A stretch of DNA of 64,000 nt, taken from NCBI GenBank assembly GCA_027306605.1, contig DAHUZK010000017.1, positions 1 through 64,000 on the forward strand, written 5' to 3'. The notes beneath the pieces were generated by a model. The model had not been told where the DNA came from, did not search any database, and saw only the letters and a list, made by a program, of their open reading frames with translations. The DNA is from Acidimicrobiaceae bacterium. GTDB lineage: Bacteria > Actinomycetota > Acidimicrobiia > Acidimicrobiales > RAAP-2. Shown here one piece after another: positions 15,968 to 22,218 of the stretch. Positions within the stretch are counted from its first letter, which is position 1, and each line of letters begins with the position of its first letter. A program made the translations under genes and the position numbers.

Positions 15968-16151
15968 CGCGACTCGCGGCACACCACTTCTGCACACCAA
16001 CGGCACAACAGCTCAAATCGCACGTTGGATGTGCCGAAACTCGAAGTGATGGCAGGAGCGCTCTCGACCCGTGAACGTGAAGGGGTCGAGCACCGTCGCC
16101 ACGGGGGACGAGCCCGGCGACGGACGACGAGATCGGCGGGGGGTGGGGCGG

Positions 16152-17147
16152 ATGCGCATCCTGATCGCTGACGGTGACGTCACCGGCCGACTGCCACTCG
16201 AGGCACTGGTGTCCGATCTCGGCCACTCCTGCCTGGTGGCCCACGACGGTGACACCGCGTGGACCCTGCTGGCGGGCGGTGGGGTGGACGTGGTGCTGAT
16301 GGACTGGGACATGCCCGGCCTGAACGGTCGCGAGCTGTGCCGGCGGGTGCGCAACGAGCCGGGAGACCGCTACGTCTACATCGTGCTCACCACCGAGCTC
16401 GACCACCCCGAGCACATCCTCGAAGGCCTGGGCGCCGGCGCGGACAACTACTTGATAAAGCCGGTCGACCCCTTCTCCGTCCAGACGCGCCTGGTGGCGG
16501 CCGAGCGCGTGGCCGCGGTGCACGGCGCGCTCGCCGTGACCCAGGCCGAGCTGGAGCGGGCGAATCTCGAGCTGTTGGAGCAGTCGCGCACGGACGGGCT
16601 GACGGGATTGGGCAACCGCCGCCGCATGGAGGAGGACCTGAACCGGACCCACGCCCGGGCGGTGCGGGTGGGGCGCACGTACGGCGTCGCGCTCTTCGAC
16701 ATCGACTACTTCAAGCTCTACAACGACCATTACGGGCACGTCGGAGGCGACGAGACCCTGCGGCGGGTGGCGGCCACGATCGACGTCGTCGTGCGGGCGG
16801 GCGAATGCGCCTATCGCTACGGTGGCGAGGAGTTCCTGTTGCTCATGCCCGATTGCCGTCCGACCGATTCCATCTTCATCACCGGAGAGCGGATCCGCCA
16901 GGCCGTCCTCGACGCCTCCATCCGACACGTCGCCCGGCCGTCGGACCCACCCCTGGTGACCTTGAGCGGCGGTGTGTCCTGCTGGACTCCCGGGTCCCCC
17001 CTGTCGTTGCTCGAGGTGCTCGAGCAGGCGGACGAGGCCCTGTTCGACGCCAAGTCGGACGGGCGGAACCGCGTCTACGCCGCCCCGTCGGTCGACGGGT
17101 GCGGCGACCTCGCGCCGAGGGGAGCGGTCGGAGTCGCCCTGAAGTAG
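16152..17147 (+). CDS. REC-GGDEF response regulator (probable diguanylate cyclase)
   Basis: 331 residues. The receiver domain spans about 1-120, with acidic pocket ADGD, phosphoacceptor Asp51 in LMDWDMPG, Thr in LTT and Lys in LIKP. A coiled linker (about 125-160) leads to GGDEF at about 165-320: TDGLTGLGNRRRMEED, FDIDYFKLYNDHYGH and the active site RYGGEEF. The inhibitory-site RxxD reads RAGE, so product inhibition may be weak. It should make cyclic di-GMP on phosphorylation; no kinase is adjacent. ATG 16152 follows GGGGTGGGGCGG; GTG 16071 would add 27 polar residues. Confidence 0.9.
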   Translation: MRILIADGDVTGRLPLEALVSDLGHSCLVAHDGDTAWTLLAGGGVDVVLMDWDMPGLNGRELCRRVRNEPGDRYVYIVLTTELDHPEHILEGLGAGADNYLIKPVDPFSVQTRLVAAERVAAVHGALAVTQAELERANLELLEQSRTDGLTGLGNRRRMEEDLNRTHARAVRVGRTYGVALFDIDYFKLYNDHYGHVGGDETLRRVAATIDVVVRAGECAYRYGGEEFLLLMPDCRPTDSIFITGERIRQAVLDASIRHVARPSDPPLVTLSGGVSCWTPGSPLSLLEVLEQADEALFDAKSDGRNRVYAAPSVDGCGDLAPRGAVGVALK

Positions 17148-17170: not shown

Positions 17171-17737
17171 TCAGCCCGGGCCGGCGAGCGCTGTGCGCAG
17201 CGCTCGGAACGCCTTCGAGGTCCGGGCGACGAACTCCTCGTCCCGGGCGGCGTCGCCGTGCTCGAGCCAGGTCAGCGTCGCCTCGACCAGCCACCCGAAG
17301 AGGGCCTCGGCCCGCCAGGCGTCCAAGGTCCGGTCCCCCGAGTCGAGCGAGCTGAGCCGGCGCACGACGGACACGGAGGTCTCGCGGATCCCCCCGGCGT
17401 AGGCCGCGAACTGCCGCTCGTGGGCCGCATGCCGCCACAGAAGGGTGAAGGCCGCGGGATCCTCCCGCGCCACGGTCAGGAGAGTGCGCGGACCGAGCCC
17501 CGACTGACCGGGCTGGGCGAGTTCGGTCCGCAACTCGTCGCCGAGGTGGTCGAAGACCTGCTGGAGGATCTCGCGGTAGAGCTCCTCCTTCGATCCGAAG
17601 TGGCGGTAGACGATGAGCTTGGTGACGTCGCAGGCCGCGGCGACGTCGTCCATCGACGTCTCGGCGAACCCGGATGCGGCGAAGGCCCGTGCGGCACCGT
17701 GGAGGATGGCGGCCCGACGTTCGGCGCGGGGAAGCAG
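17171..17737 (-). CDS. TetR-family regulator with no canonical start codon
   Basis: About 188 residues when read from CTG 17737. The complete TetR helix-turn-helix is encoded: RAERRAAILHGAARAFAASG, then FAETSMDDVAAACDVTKLIVYRHFGSKEELY. The first ATG (17653) falls in the middle of this domain and would delete helix 1. In frame, no ATG, GTG or TTG lies between the upstream stop (about 17780) and 17653. CTG 17737, with GAGAG just upstream, is the best candidate; a base change or sequence error is the alternative. It diverges from the ferritin-like/monooxygenase pair and probably represses it. Confidence 0.8.
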   Translation of the reverse strand: MLPRAERRAAILHGAARAFAASGFAETSMDDVAAACDVTKLIVYRHFGSKEELYREILQQVFDHLGDELRTELAQPGQSGLGPRTLLTVAREDPAAFTLLWRHAAHERQFAAYAGGIRETSVSVVRRLSSLDSGDRTLDAWRAEALFGWLVEATLTWLEHGDAARDEEFVARTSKAFRALRTALAGPG

Positions 17738-17751
17738 CTTGCTCTCGAGTT

Positions 17752-17771
17752 GTATACGCGCAAGTATATAC
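17752..17771. promoter_or_regulatory. Candidate TetR operator GTATA-N10-TATAC
   Basis: GTATACGCGCAAGTATATAC has GTATA/TATAC arms and also reads as two GTATA direct repeats 12 bp apart. It is an island of AT-rich sequence between the divergent TetR gene (proposed start 17737) and the ATG at 17813, the expected place for autoregulation and control of the operon. Confidence 0.5.
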
Positions 17772-17812
17772 CGTTGAGTTCACACTCTCCAGGACGACGT
17801 GGGGGCACGACC

Positions 17813-18853
17813 ATGGCGACGGCGCAGCTGCAATTCACCGAAGCGGAGCTCCTGGCCGACGCGCCGGTCGACGAGCCGCTCTTCGCCGGCGGCGTCCGGT
17901 GCCACGGAGGCTTCGACGAGCGGGGGACCTACGTCTCGCCGCGCACGCGCCACCGCGTCCCGGCCATCGCGGCCTGGGCGGAGCAGAACGGCGCACGTTT
18001 CAAGACGGAGCTCCTCGACGTGCCGCTGGAGCGATGGGAGCGCTCCTTCCCCAGCGTGGACCAGGCGCGGTTCCTCCTGCAGGCCGGAGTGCCCGAACCC
18101 CTCATGGCGACGCTGACCCGCATCGGCACCGTCGAGGGCTATGGCGCCAACATCCGGCTGCTGAAGCCCAAGGACCTCCAACGGCACTTCGTCGAGGACG
18201 TGGAGGGAACGGCCATCGACCATCTCGGTCGCGGGCTCTTCGAGGCGCACGGGCGGGACGAGGCGGGATGGGAAGCGGAGGCGGGACACCGCGACATGTG
18301 GTTCGCCGCGCGGGACATCGCGTTCGGGCGGCCCTGTGACGACCTCGACGTGGAGGCGATGTTGGCGCGCATGGGAATCGGAGCCGGCCGGACCGGTGCC
18401 GACGCCAACCGCTTGTTGCCCGACGACGTCTCGCCCGAGCTCGAGATGATGGTGACGCTGATGGTGCGCGTGCTCTTCATAGAGATCTCCGCTTTCCACA
18501 CGTTCGCCTGGGCGGAGGAATGGATGTCCGACACCGAATTGGTGGCCGGCGAGGGAGAGGCCGCCCGCCTCGTGTCCTTCATCCGGGCCGACGAGACGCC
18601 TCACGTGGGCTACCTGCGCACCGCCCTCTCCGAGATGCGCGACCGCACCTGGGTGGGCGAGGGCGGCCGGCACCACGACGGCGGCCGGATGATCGCCCGC
18701 ATCTGGGAGCCGCTGCTGGCTCAGAGCCTCGGCCCGGCACGCCACGAAGCCCGGCGCGCTGCCATGGGCGAGGTGGAGCACTGGTGCGCCCGGCGCCGCA
18801 ACGGAGCCGAGATCCTGGCCGAGTTCACGTCACTGGGGCCCCCGGCGCAGTGA
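17813..18853 (+). CDS. Ferritin-like (putative diiron) protein of unknown function
   Basis: 346 residues; I do not recognise a named family. Four helical metal-type motifs are visible in the order of a ferritin-like four-helix bundle: Glu in RHFVEDVEGTAIDHL, then EAGH (ExxH); Glu in VLFIEISAFHTFAW, then DETPHVGYL (ExxH). This matches the E...ExxH...E...ExxH pattern of diiron oxidases and oxygenases. The N-terminal 100 residues have no clear motif. ATG 17813 has only a GGGGG tract upstream. The stop overlaps the GTG of the LLM monooxygenase by 4 bases, so the two are probably functional partners. Confidence 0.65.
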   Translation: MATAQLQFTEAELLADAPVDEPLFAGGVRCHGGFDERGTYVSPRTRHRVPAIAAWAEQNGARFKTELLDVPLERWERSFPSVDQARFLLQAGVPEPLMATLTRIGTVEGYGANIRLLKPKDLQRHFVEDVEGTAIDHLGRGLFEAHGRDEAGWEAEAGHRDMWFAARDIAFGRPCDDLDVEAMLARMGIGAGRTGADANRLLPDDVSPELEMMVTLMVRVLFIEISAFHTFAWAEEWMSDTELVAGEGEAARLVSFIRADETPHVGYLRTALSEMRDRTWVGEGGRHHDGGRMIARIWEPLLAQSLGPARHEARRAAMGEVEHWCARRRNGAEILAEFTSLGPPAQ

Positions 18854-20214
18854 AGTTCGGGATCTTCTACGAACACCAGCTGCCCCGTCCGTGGAGCGAG
18901 GGTGACGAGTACCGCCTGCTGCAGGACGCCCTCGAGCAGGTCGAGCTGGCCGACCGGCTCGGTTTCGACGTGGTGTGGGAGGTCGAGCACCACTTCTTGG
19001 AGGAGTACAGCCACTCCTCCGCTCCCGAGGTCTTCCTCGGCGCGTGCAGCCAGCGCACCAAGGACATCCGCCTCGGGCACGGCATCATCCAGACGGCGCC
19101 CGGCTACAACCACCCGGCCCGAACGGCGGAGCGCGTGGCCACGCTCGACCTGCTCTCGGGCGGCCGTGTCGAGTTCGGCTCGGGGGAGTCCGGTTCCGAG
19201 GCCGAGCTCGGCGGTTTCCAGGTCGACCCGGCGACCAAGCGCGAGGCCTGGCTCGAGGGGCTCGAGGTGGCACTGCGTTGCATGACCGAGACACCGTTCA
19301 GCGGTGTCGACGGGCGCTTCGTACAGATGCCCCCGCGCAACGTGGTGCCCAAGCCGATGCAGCGGCCGCATCCGCCGCTGTGGGTCGCCTGCTCTCGCCG
19401 CGACACGATCCTGCTGGCGGCGGAGAAGGGGATCGGCGCGCTCACCTTCGCCTTCATCGACCCCGAGGAAGCGGTGAAGTGGGTCTCGGACTACGAGCGG
19501 ACGCTGTCCGAGCGCTGTGTCCCCGTCGGGTTGGCCGTGAACCCGAACATCGCCTGCGTGACCCAGATGATGTGCCACCAGGACGAGAAGGTGGCGCTGG
19601 ACCGGGGCCTCGAAGGGGGCAACTTCTTCGGGTACTCGCTCGGCCACTACTACGTCTTCGGCGAGCACCGCCCGGGGTCGACCGACGTCTGGGCCGAGTA
19701 CCGGGATCGGCGGGGCGACGTGGGCTATTCGCCCGAGGTCGAGACGGCGCTGCGCCAGGAACGTCTCGGCGCCAAGCTGGCCGCCGGCGACCGCACCGGC
19801 CTGCGCGGCGCCATGGGGACGCCCGGCCAGGTGCGCGAGTTCCTGGAACGCTTCGAACAGGCCGGCGTGGATCAGGTCATCTTCGTGTTGCAGGCGGGCA
19901 GGAACCGCCACGAGGACATCTGCGAGTCGCTCGAGCTCTTCGGCCGCGAAGTGCTCCCGGCGTTCAAGGAGCGCGACGAGTCACAGGCGGCGGCCAAGGC
20001 CACCCGGCTGGCACCGGCGATCGAGGCCGCCATGGCGCGTCGCGACGAGGAGCCCTCGCCTCCGGCGCTGCCCCCCGACTACTCGTTTCCGGCGATGCCG
20101 CGCCGCTGGGCCGACGAGACGGGCAGCGAGGAGATGCAGGCCTGGCTCGAGCACTTCGCCGAGAGCCGCGCCAAGGGCGTCCGGGACGAGGGGCTGGGGA
20201 TCCTGGGAAGCTGA
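18850..20214 (+). CDS. LLM-class flavin-dependent monooxygenase-like protein with C-terminal extension
   Basis: 454 residues. The luciferase-like barrel fills 1-370: MKFGIFYEHQLPRPW, WEVEHHFLEEYSHSSAPEVFLG (split), GHGIIQTAPGYNHPARTAERVATLDLLSGGR region, FGSGESGSEAELGGF and a C-terminal HEDICESLELFGREVLPAF. The HHF and EYS residues match the FMN/alkanal-monooxygenase-like branch rather than typical F420 enzymes. An extra 80 or so residues at the C-terminus are charged and proline-rich, ending in a helical segment. GTG start overlaps the ferritin-like gene stop (GTGA). Substrate unknown. Confidence 0.85.
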   Translation: MKFGIFYEHQLPRPWSEGDEYRLLQDALEQVELADRLGFDVVWEVEHHFLEEYSHSSAPEVFLGACSQRTKDIRLGHGIIQTAPGYNHPARTAERVATLDLLSGGRVEFGSGESGSEAELGGFQVDPATKREAWLEGLEVALRCMTETPFSGVDGRFVQMPPRNVVPKPMQRPHPPLWVACSRRDTILLAAEKGIGALTFAFIDPEEAVKWVSDYERTLSERCVPVGLAVNPNIACVTQMMCHQDEKVALDRGLEGGNFFGYSLGHYYVFGEHRPGSTDVWAEYRDRRGDVGYSPEVETALRQERLGAKLAAGDRTGLRGAMGTPGQVREFLERFEQAGVDQVIFVLQAGRNRHEDICESLELFGREVLPAFKERDESQAAAKATRLAPAIEAAMARRDEEPSPPALPPDYSFPAMPRRWADETGSEEMQAWLEHFAESRAKGVRDEGLGILGS

Positions 20215-20652: not shown

Positions 20653-22218
20653 ATGCCGGACTTCGACGTCATCGTCATCGGTGCGGGACACAACGGGCTG
20701 ACCGCCGCCGCCGTGATGGCACGGGGCGGGCTCAAGGTGCTCTGCCTCGAGAAGAACCACTTCATCGGCGGGATGGCCTCCACCACCGAGCTCATCCGCG
20801 GCTACCGGTTCGAGCTGGCCGGTTCGATCCAGTTCCCGGTGCCGAACGAGATCTTCGAGCAGCTCGAGCTCGACTCCTGCCCGATCTACGAGCCCGAGGT
20901 CCAGTCGGCCTCCATCGGGGAGGGGGACCAGCCCCCGCTCTTCCTCTACTCGGACCCCGAGCGGCTGCTCGGACATCTCGGCGAGACGCTGGGGACCGAG
21001 GCGGTGCTCGGCATGGCCGAGGTGGCGGCCTGGGCCGAGGCACCGGCACGGGCCATCGGCCGGTTCGAGGTCCGCCGTGGGCCGAAGTCACTCGACGAGA
21101 TGTGGGCGTGCGCGGCCAACGAGGCTGAGCGGGAAGCCATCCGCATGGCGATGTTCGGCAGCGTGATGGACGTGATCGACCGCTATCTCCCCGACCGCAC
21201 GAAGCATGCGCCCGTGCGGTCCATGCTGAGCTTCCTCGCGGTCAATTCGACCTTCCGCGGCCCTGCGTCGCCGGGAAGCGCCCTGTGCCTCGCCTTCGCC
21301 CTGGCCTCTCCCGGTACCGCCACCATGTCCAAGGTCCGCGGCGGGCTCGGGACGATCGCCGACCATCTGCGCCGGCTCTTCGAGCGTCACGGTGGCCAGC
21401 TGCGCCGCCATGCCAAGGTCGCGCGGATCGTCGTCGGCGAGGGGGCCGCGCGCGGGGTCGAGTTGGGAGACGGAGAGGTCGTCACCGCCCCGATCGTGGT
21501 CTCCAATCTGGACCCGACCGCGACCTTCACGCAGCTGGTCGAACCGGAGGCCCTTCCCGACGCCTTCGCGCGCCGGATCGCCGCCATCGACCACCGGGCG
21601 GCATACTTCCAGGCGCACTTCGCCCTGCGGGGCTTGCCGGAGTACCGAGGCCCTTACGAAGCGCTCAACGACAGCGCGATGGGACGCAACGTCACGTTCT
21701 TCGGCACCGCCGAGCAGATGCAGCGTGACTTCGAGGGCTGCGTTCGAGGCGAGGTGCCGCAATCGCCCAGTTTCAACCTGCAGATCCCGTCCCTCGACGA
21801 CGCCTCACTGGCGCCCGAGGGGATGCATGCTGCCAGCAGCTTCGCCTTCTACCTGCCCATCGGCACGGACCGCGAGAGCCAGGGGCGCCTTCGCGACGAG
21901 ATGGCGTCACGGATCGTGGCCAAGATCGCTTCGGTCGCCCCGAACTTCCCCGATCTGATAGAGCGCCAGCTCAACTATCCCGCCTACACCTACGAGCTGA
22001 TGTTCGGGTGTACGGGGGGTGACTTCACCCACGGGCTCCTCCAGCCCGAGTTCATGGGTCCCTTCCGGCCGGGACCGCGGGGATGGCCGGACAATCCGGT
22101 CCCGGTCGAGGGGCTCTACCTGTGCGGGGCGGGCTGCCACGGTGGGCCGGGCGTGACCTTCATCCCCGGCTACAACTGCGCCTCCGCGGTGTTGGAGGGG
22201 ACGAGCGCCCGGTTGTAG
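20653..22218 (+). CDS. Phytoene-desaturase-like FAD-dependent oxidoreductase (PYROXD2-type)
   Basis: 521 residues. The dinucleotide motif is VIVIGAGHNGLTAAAVMARGG (split as VIVIGAGHNGL and on), with LEKNHFIGGMASTTEL next, then a substrate domain and a C-terminal GLYLCGAGCHGGPGVTFIPGYNCA FAD-closing segment. This is the CrtI/PYROXD2 branch of amine-oxidase-like flavoproteins; no carotenoid gene is nearby, so a carotenoid role is not supported. ATG 20653 is chosen as the first residue before the Rossmann strand. Its 3' end overlaps the convergent membrane-protein gene by 49 bp. Confidence 0.88.
   Translation: MPDFDVIVIGAGHNGLTAAAVMARGGLKVLCLEKNHFIGGMASTTELIRGYRFELAGSIQFPVPNEIFEQLELDSCPIYEPEVQSASIGEGDQPPLFLYSDPERLLGHLGETLGTEAVLGMAEVAAWAEAPARAIGRFEVRRGPKSLDEMWACAANEAEREAIRMAMFGSVMDVIDRYLPDRTKHAPVRSMLSFLAVNSTFRGPASPGSALCLAFALASPGTATMSKVRGGLGTIADHLRRLFERHGGQLRRHAKVARIVVGEGAARGVELGDGEVVTAPIVVSNLDPTATFTQLVEPEALPDAFARRIAAIDHRAAYFQAHFALRGLPEYRGPYEALNDSAMGRNVTFFGTAEQMQRDFEGCVRGEVPQSPSFNLQIPSLDDASLAPEGMHAASSFAFYLPIGTDRESQGRLRDEMASRIVAKIASVAPNFPDLIERQLNYPAYTYELMFGCTGGDFTHGLLQPEFMGPFRPGPRGWPDNPVPVEGLYLCGAGCHGGPGVTFIPGYNCASAVLEGTSARL

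Follow-up and report, generated by a model that had tools for sequence, protein, structure and literature searches.

A conserved TetR, ferritin-like and luciferase-like gene unit from an Acidimicrobiaceae bacterium, with a proposed two-oxygenase function

Here we describe a conserved unit of three genes, in which a TetR-family regulator gene stands opposite a gene for a ferritin-like protein (FLP) and a gene for a luciferase-like monooxygenase (LLM). Our preferred reading, to which we give a probability of about one half, is that the unit is a self-contained two-oxygenase module repressed by TetR, in which an oxidation by FLP would be followed by the insertion of oxygen by LLM. The structure of the module and its regulon are well supported; its chemistry and its substrate we infer. 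The three kinds of protein are known (ferritin-like diiron oxygenases, LLMs and TetR regulators), and we found no description of their combination. The original prediction knew of no named pathway with the FLP-LLM pair, and indeed the family libraries and literature that we searched name none and hold no description of such a pair.

A conserved three-gene unit

The features of the module lie as follows in the window, by which we mean the whole stretch of 64,000 nucleotides that was analysed.

17171 to 17737, minus strand: TetR-family regulator gene, from a TetR_N match (E 1.8e-15), FLP-adjoining homologues and start codon analysis
17752 to 17771, unstranded: putative operator GTATACGCGCAAGTATATAC, with the core GTAWAC-N6-GTWTAY at 17752-17769
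17813 to 18853, plus strand: FLP gene, 346 aa, ATG start; a probable dimetal-carboxylate oxidase/oxygenase of an unnamed family
18850 to 20214, plus strand: LLM gene, 454 aa, GTG start; luciferase-like, probably an FMNH2-dependent monooxygenase
18850 to 18853, plus strand: GTGA stop/start overlap of FLP and LLM, from the sequence, with putative translational coupling

The layout agrees with the original prediction on two counts: the claimed four-base overlap of FLP and LLM is the GTGA at 18850-18853, common to both open reading frames, and the TetR gene lies divergently on the minus strand with a palindrome in the gap between it and FLP. In orthologous loci the FLP and LLM genes are also separated by very short gaps, or overlap. 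Since homologues in many genera repeat the arrangement of TetR, FLP and LLM, it is not a product of chance. Two other genes flank the module in the window. A response regulator gene with a GGDEF domain (16071-17147) adjoins the TetR gene and is convergent with it, and a CrtO/CrtI-like FAD oxidoreductase gene (20653-22218) follows the module, with a close homologue (87%) about 6 kb downstream of LLM in the locus L001.

Conservation of the pair, which had been set as a refuting test, was borne out by the 296 genomes sampled from the class. FLP is present in 40 of them, LLM (at E <= 1e-100) in 66 and both in 29, and in 23 of the 40 FLP-bearing genomes LLM lies directly downstream of FLP on the same strand. 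The odds ratio for their co-occurrence over the 296 genomes is 15.6 (Fisher p 1.6e-13, uncorrected for phylogeny). LLM alone is more widespread; many genomes hold LLM without FLP and some hold FLP without LLM, and the coupling is therefore strong and not obligate. On a tree of the LLM proteins, the label "next to FLP" takes 9 changes, compared with 16.6 when the labels are shuffled; the FLP-adjoining LLM genes do not form one clade, and the association has thus been lost or gained several times. On these comparisons, the three genes are shown to form a conserved unit.

Ten named relatives of FLP in genome contigs, at 50-81% identity, are mostly Acidimicrobiia (Acidimicrobiaceae, Acidimicrobiales and Microthrix metagenome-assembled genomes), with two labelled Frankiales/Frankiaceae. 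A 396-genome sample of the phylum gave no profile match to FLP outside its own order, and no relatives were found in viral contigs or on plasmids. The window's own genome holds one FLP. In one lineage (L046-L067) the module sits within a housekeeping cluster, between rho/rpmE/DUF1385 and prfA/prmC, a setting uninformative about a pathway. In this same lineage the place between prfA and the DUF1385/rho genes can also be taken by LLM, whether FLP accompanies it or not. A search of the neighbourhood for pathway genes around the module gave none, the recurrent neighbours being rho, rpmE, prfA and prmC of this lineage, which were identified by eye from the sequence.

The operator and the putative TetR regulon

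The regulator is matched by the TetR_N DNA-binding domain (PF00440, E 1.8e-15), and among the loci fetched its homologues, at 46-64% identity, adjoin FLP in 18 further loci, while one adjoins an LLM gene. An ATG at 17653 was rejected as its start codon because the first helix of the DNA-binding domain would be lost; the homology extends to about 17749, and no ATG, GTG or TTG start was found in frame before the domain. The CTG at 17737-17735, the sole in-frame candidate upstream, is the probable start. In two relatives, L004 and L005, an ATG in frame stands next to the operator, at a place where the window has an Arg codon. The regulator resembles FasR, a divergent autoregulator of the TetR family, in its TetR_N domain, its divergent gene order and the palindrome in the gap; FasR is the best full-length model for it, yet the score is 55.8 bits against a cut-off of 330. 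In a further locus (L099, genome G177, C125, 2416-4401) an LLM gene is divergent from a TetR gene whose product is 44% identical to that of the window; the gap between them is AT-rich and different from the window's, and the FLP of that genome is located elsewhere, without a TetR match.

Between TetR and FLP lies the palindrome GTATAC GCGCAA GTATATAC, at 17752-17771, which ends 41 bases upstream of the FLP start codon. When the TetR-FLP gaps of 19 loci were aligned, the common palindrome near the FLP start was the 18-bp GTAWAC-N6-GTWTAY, with degenerate forms in four of the loci (L046, L048, L049 and L050). Throughout 1.2 Mb of locus DNA, duplicates included, this pattern is confined to TetR-FLP gaps with the exception of a single site, which immediately precedes the LLM gene in genome G079. 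There the FLP and TetR genes are on a different contig from LLM and have their own copy of the operator. The window's own genome (3.36 Mb) matches the pattern once, at 17752-17769, and one operator per genome is usual. A scan of the 296 class genomes gave 26 palindromic sites, a set that leaves out the window's operator because its last base is T. Half of them (13 of 26) are at the module: 12 stand before an FLP gene and the other before the detached LLM gene of G079, when uniform placement would lead one to expect about 0.0004 upstream of FLP.

Because the LLM gene of G079 keeps the operator on another contig, FLP and LLM share a regulon. The regulator is most likely a dedicated and local one for FLP and LLM, and LLM most likely belongs to its regulon even where it is located elsewhere. 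From the co-occurrence of TetR and palindrome, the TetR protein would be expected to bind this site. It would repress rather than activate, which we infer from the short distance between operator and start codon and from the precedent of other TetR regulators.

The two predicted enzymes

The assignment of LLM is the simpler of the two. The Bac_luciferase domain (PF00296, E 6.1e-46) covers residues 1-342, and the protein carries the EHHF motif that is common to bacterial luciferase-type enzymes. Among solved structures RslO1 (7bip) is nearest to it, an enzyme that is described as FMN-dependent and for which epoxide formation has been proposed (PMC8093152). Models of the F420 subfamily score on LLM too; EHHF and RslO1 point to FMN, and we predict an FMNH2-dependent monooxygenase. 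LLM shares domain and motif with the FMN-dependent luciferase-like monooxygenases (RslO1, MsnO8, LuxA) and differs from them by an extra C-terminal tail of about 80 residues, kept in most of its own homologues, and by having no adjoining flavin reductase gene. No dedicated flavin reductase or ferredoxin gene is encoded at the window module. Two-component LLMs are commonly without a nearby reductase gene, and draw their FMNH2 from general reductases. The tail, which had been singled out as an unusual one of 80 residues, is present (about residues 373-454; some 80-110 residues are left after the Bac_luciferase domain), but it is not peculiar to the window gene, as 51 of 75 homologue alignments reach residue 437 or beyond. 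As a mark of partnership with FLP the long tail is weak and was set aside, being found in 21 of 24 LLM genes that adjoin FLP and in 30 of 51 that do not, counts that are uncorrected for descent.

FLP belongs to no named family. None of 42 FLP homologues has a match above chance in Pfam or NCBIfam, the window FLP has none in Pfam at E 10, and the AurF family profile matches none of the 42 at E 1. Six residues that could bind metal, E108, E150, H159, E224, E261 and H264, are identical in all 42 sequences, and H137, D149, D260 and E274 are likewise invariant. As candidate ligands the six fit a site of four carboxylates and two histidines, which is one ligand set described for ferritin-like diiron oxygenases (PMC13108848). 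The E..ExxH..E..ExxH pattern proposed at the outset stands in its second half, since E224 and E261xxH264 are invariant among the homologues, which do not, however, keep its first ExxH (E156-A-G-H159). What is invariant near it is D149-E150 together with H159, with eight residues separating E150 and H159.

In a profile search against solved structures, only the helix of E261xxH264 found a match, a weak one (E 0.05) to bacterioferritin. This sole sequence similarity to a solved protein would suit an FLP that is not an oxygenase at all, but serves in metal storage or delivery, or forms a protein radical, and has only its regulation in common with LLM; CADD and R2, whose folds resemble that of FLP, can likewise hold a cofactor or radical instead of turning over a free substrate. 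We consider this improbable, since FLP, unlike the storage ferritins, has 346 residues, a pair of strands at the N-terminus and many conserved positions beyond the helical bundle, and is tightly paired with a monooxygenase.

The AlphaFold model of the window FLP is poor (pLDDT 69) and its fold matches were discarded. A better model was obtained for an orthologue (L009) that is 52% identical to it, with pLDDT 81.6 and pTM 0.82; it shows the strand pair in addition to the bundle, and places E108 beside a low-confidence loop. The ferritin-like character that had been suggested for FLP is in keeping with this model, which most resembles dimetal-carboxylate oxygenases: the Z scores are 11.5 for the N-oxygenase HrmI, 10.9 for both R2lox and CADD, 10.2 for both R2 and aldehyde deformylating oxygenase and 9.6 for the hydroxylase of sMMO. 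Among the 50 structural neighbours listed, of which the best has Z 11.5, all are dimetal-carboxylate or CADD-like with the exception of 3bjd, which has an odd title. A Z of about 11 is moderate for a helical bundle, and as such bundles can reach these values without kinship, the scores are support and not proof. Foldseek with the same model placed AurF at rank 1 with E 0.55, and gave no significant match.

From the model we predict that FLP is a ferritin-like dimetal-carboxylate enzyme, built as a helical bundle and using a ligand set of four Glu and two His; it is an unnamed family, and one that probably houses two metals. With the ferritin-like diiron oxygenases (AurF, CmlI, R2lox, R2, VlmB) it shares the helical-bundle fold of its predicted model, the four invariant Glu and the two His, of which the last pair is ExxH. 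It differs from them in the motif of the second helix, which is E150-x8-H159 instead of ExxH, in the extra N-terminal strand pair, in its LLM gene partner and in lacking a Pfam or NCBIfam match. The heme-oxygenase-like dimetal oxidases (UndA, CADD, HrmI, SznF) are the other group to consider, as HrmI and CADD score against the FLP model as high as members of the ferritin-like group. FLP, however, is without the His-x3-Asp/Glu-x2-His of their core helix 3, a spacing given in SznF by the ligands H311, D315 and H318 (PMC11705231), and at position 257 a nearly invariant Ile replaces the first His.

These folds also bear on whether the module might act on nitrogen, with FLP oxygenating an amine or hydrazine in the manner of AurF/CmlI, HrmI or VlmB, and LLM completing the nitrogen group of a small natural product. 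N-oxygenases are among the closest folds, with HrmI at the top and AurF at the Foldseek rank that was not significant, and VlmB, a ferritin-like enzyme of azoxy biosynthesis, illustrates that such proteins can perform N-chemistry. Yet R2lox, R2 and CADD score equal to HrmI within error, the characterised ferritin-like N-oxygenases have a His as their seventh ligand, at the position four before the Glu of ExxH, where FLP has Ile257, and the loci examined show no biosynthetic cluster around the module. We therefore hold N-oxygenation to be quite unlikely.

Proposed chemistry and its setting

The window locus itself points to no substrate, and hints come from the loci of paralogues. The window's own genome encodes a second LLM (L086, C79:14471-15805), 68% identical to that of the window, in an acyl-CoA-type cluster without FLP or operator; its neighbours are a thiolase-like gene, an acyl-CoA dehydrogenase gene, two SDR genes and a probable TetR gene. 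On the tree, genome G654 has a protein identical to this second LLM. In another genome (L068, G004:C67, 961-14910) a divergent tandem row of FLP-FLP-LLM has acyl-CoA dehydrogenase, SDR and thiolase genes after it, and before it genes for a TetR regulator, a ferredoxin and a DUF455 ferritin-like protein. That locus also holds one protein without a Pfam match, and its genome has four further FLP-like genes. These gene neighbours suggest an acyl-CoA-linked breakdown of a lipophilic compound, a context that belongs to the paralogues and not to the window locus.

The same context weighs on a different role for the module, as a detoxification switch in which a foreign toxin of lipophilic nature would be sensed by TetR and destroyed by the two oxygenases, independently of any catabolic route. 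A three-gene unit that is self-contained, patchy in its presence and variable in its genomic position, and which usually has the single operator of its genome, is what such a switch might look like. It is nonetheless unlikely, given that no efflux or conjugation gene was seen travelling with the module and that paralogous LLM and FLP genes stand in acyl-CoA-type clusters.

Under our preferred reading, that of a two-oxygenase module, both enzymes would act on one lipophilic, probably acyl-like substrate. When no ligand is present, TetR would sit on the operator and transcription would be blocked, until a lipophilic compound, either the substrate or a precursor, lifts TetR off. FLP would then make a first oxidation (such as hydroxylation or desaturation), drawing the two electrons that it needs besides O2 from a general ferredoxin or reductase, and LLM, supplied with FMNH2 by a general flavin reductase, would insert a second oxygen in a reaction of the epoxidation, Baeyer-Villiger or hydroxylation type. 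The product would pass to a thiolase/acyl-CoA-dehydrogenase route encoded elsewhere. The original hypothesis of a coupled diiron/flavin oxidation of a hydrophobic substrate, induced through TetR, is thus partly supported. More tentatively, and with doubt prevailing, FLP might found a new dimetal oxygenase family in which the second ligand helix is broken (E-x8-H, not ExxH); coupled to a flavin monooxygenase, it would carry out a two-step oxidation unmatched by any known enzyme pair.

The module provides a defined unit of regulator, operator and two enzymes for a family without Pfam or NCBIfam annotation. Its operator is specific enough to locate the regulon from sequence alone, and links dimetal and flavin oxygen-activating chemistries to one signal. 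If both enzymes share one substrate, the module would amount to a new oxidation pathway, in a class of actinobacteria that is mostly uncultured and has been little studied.
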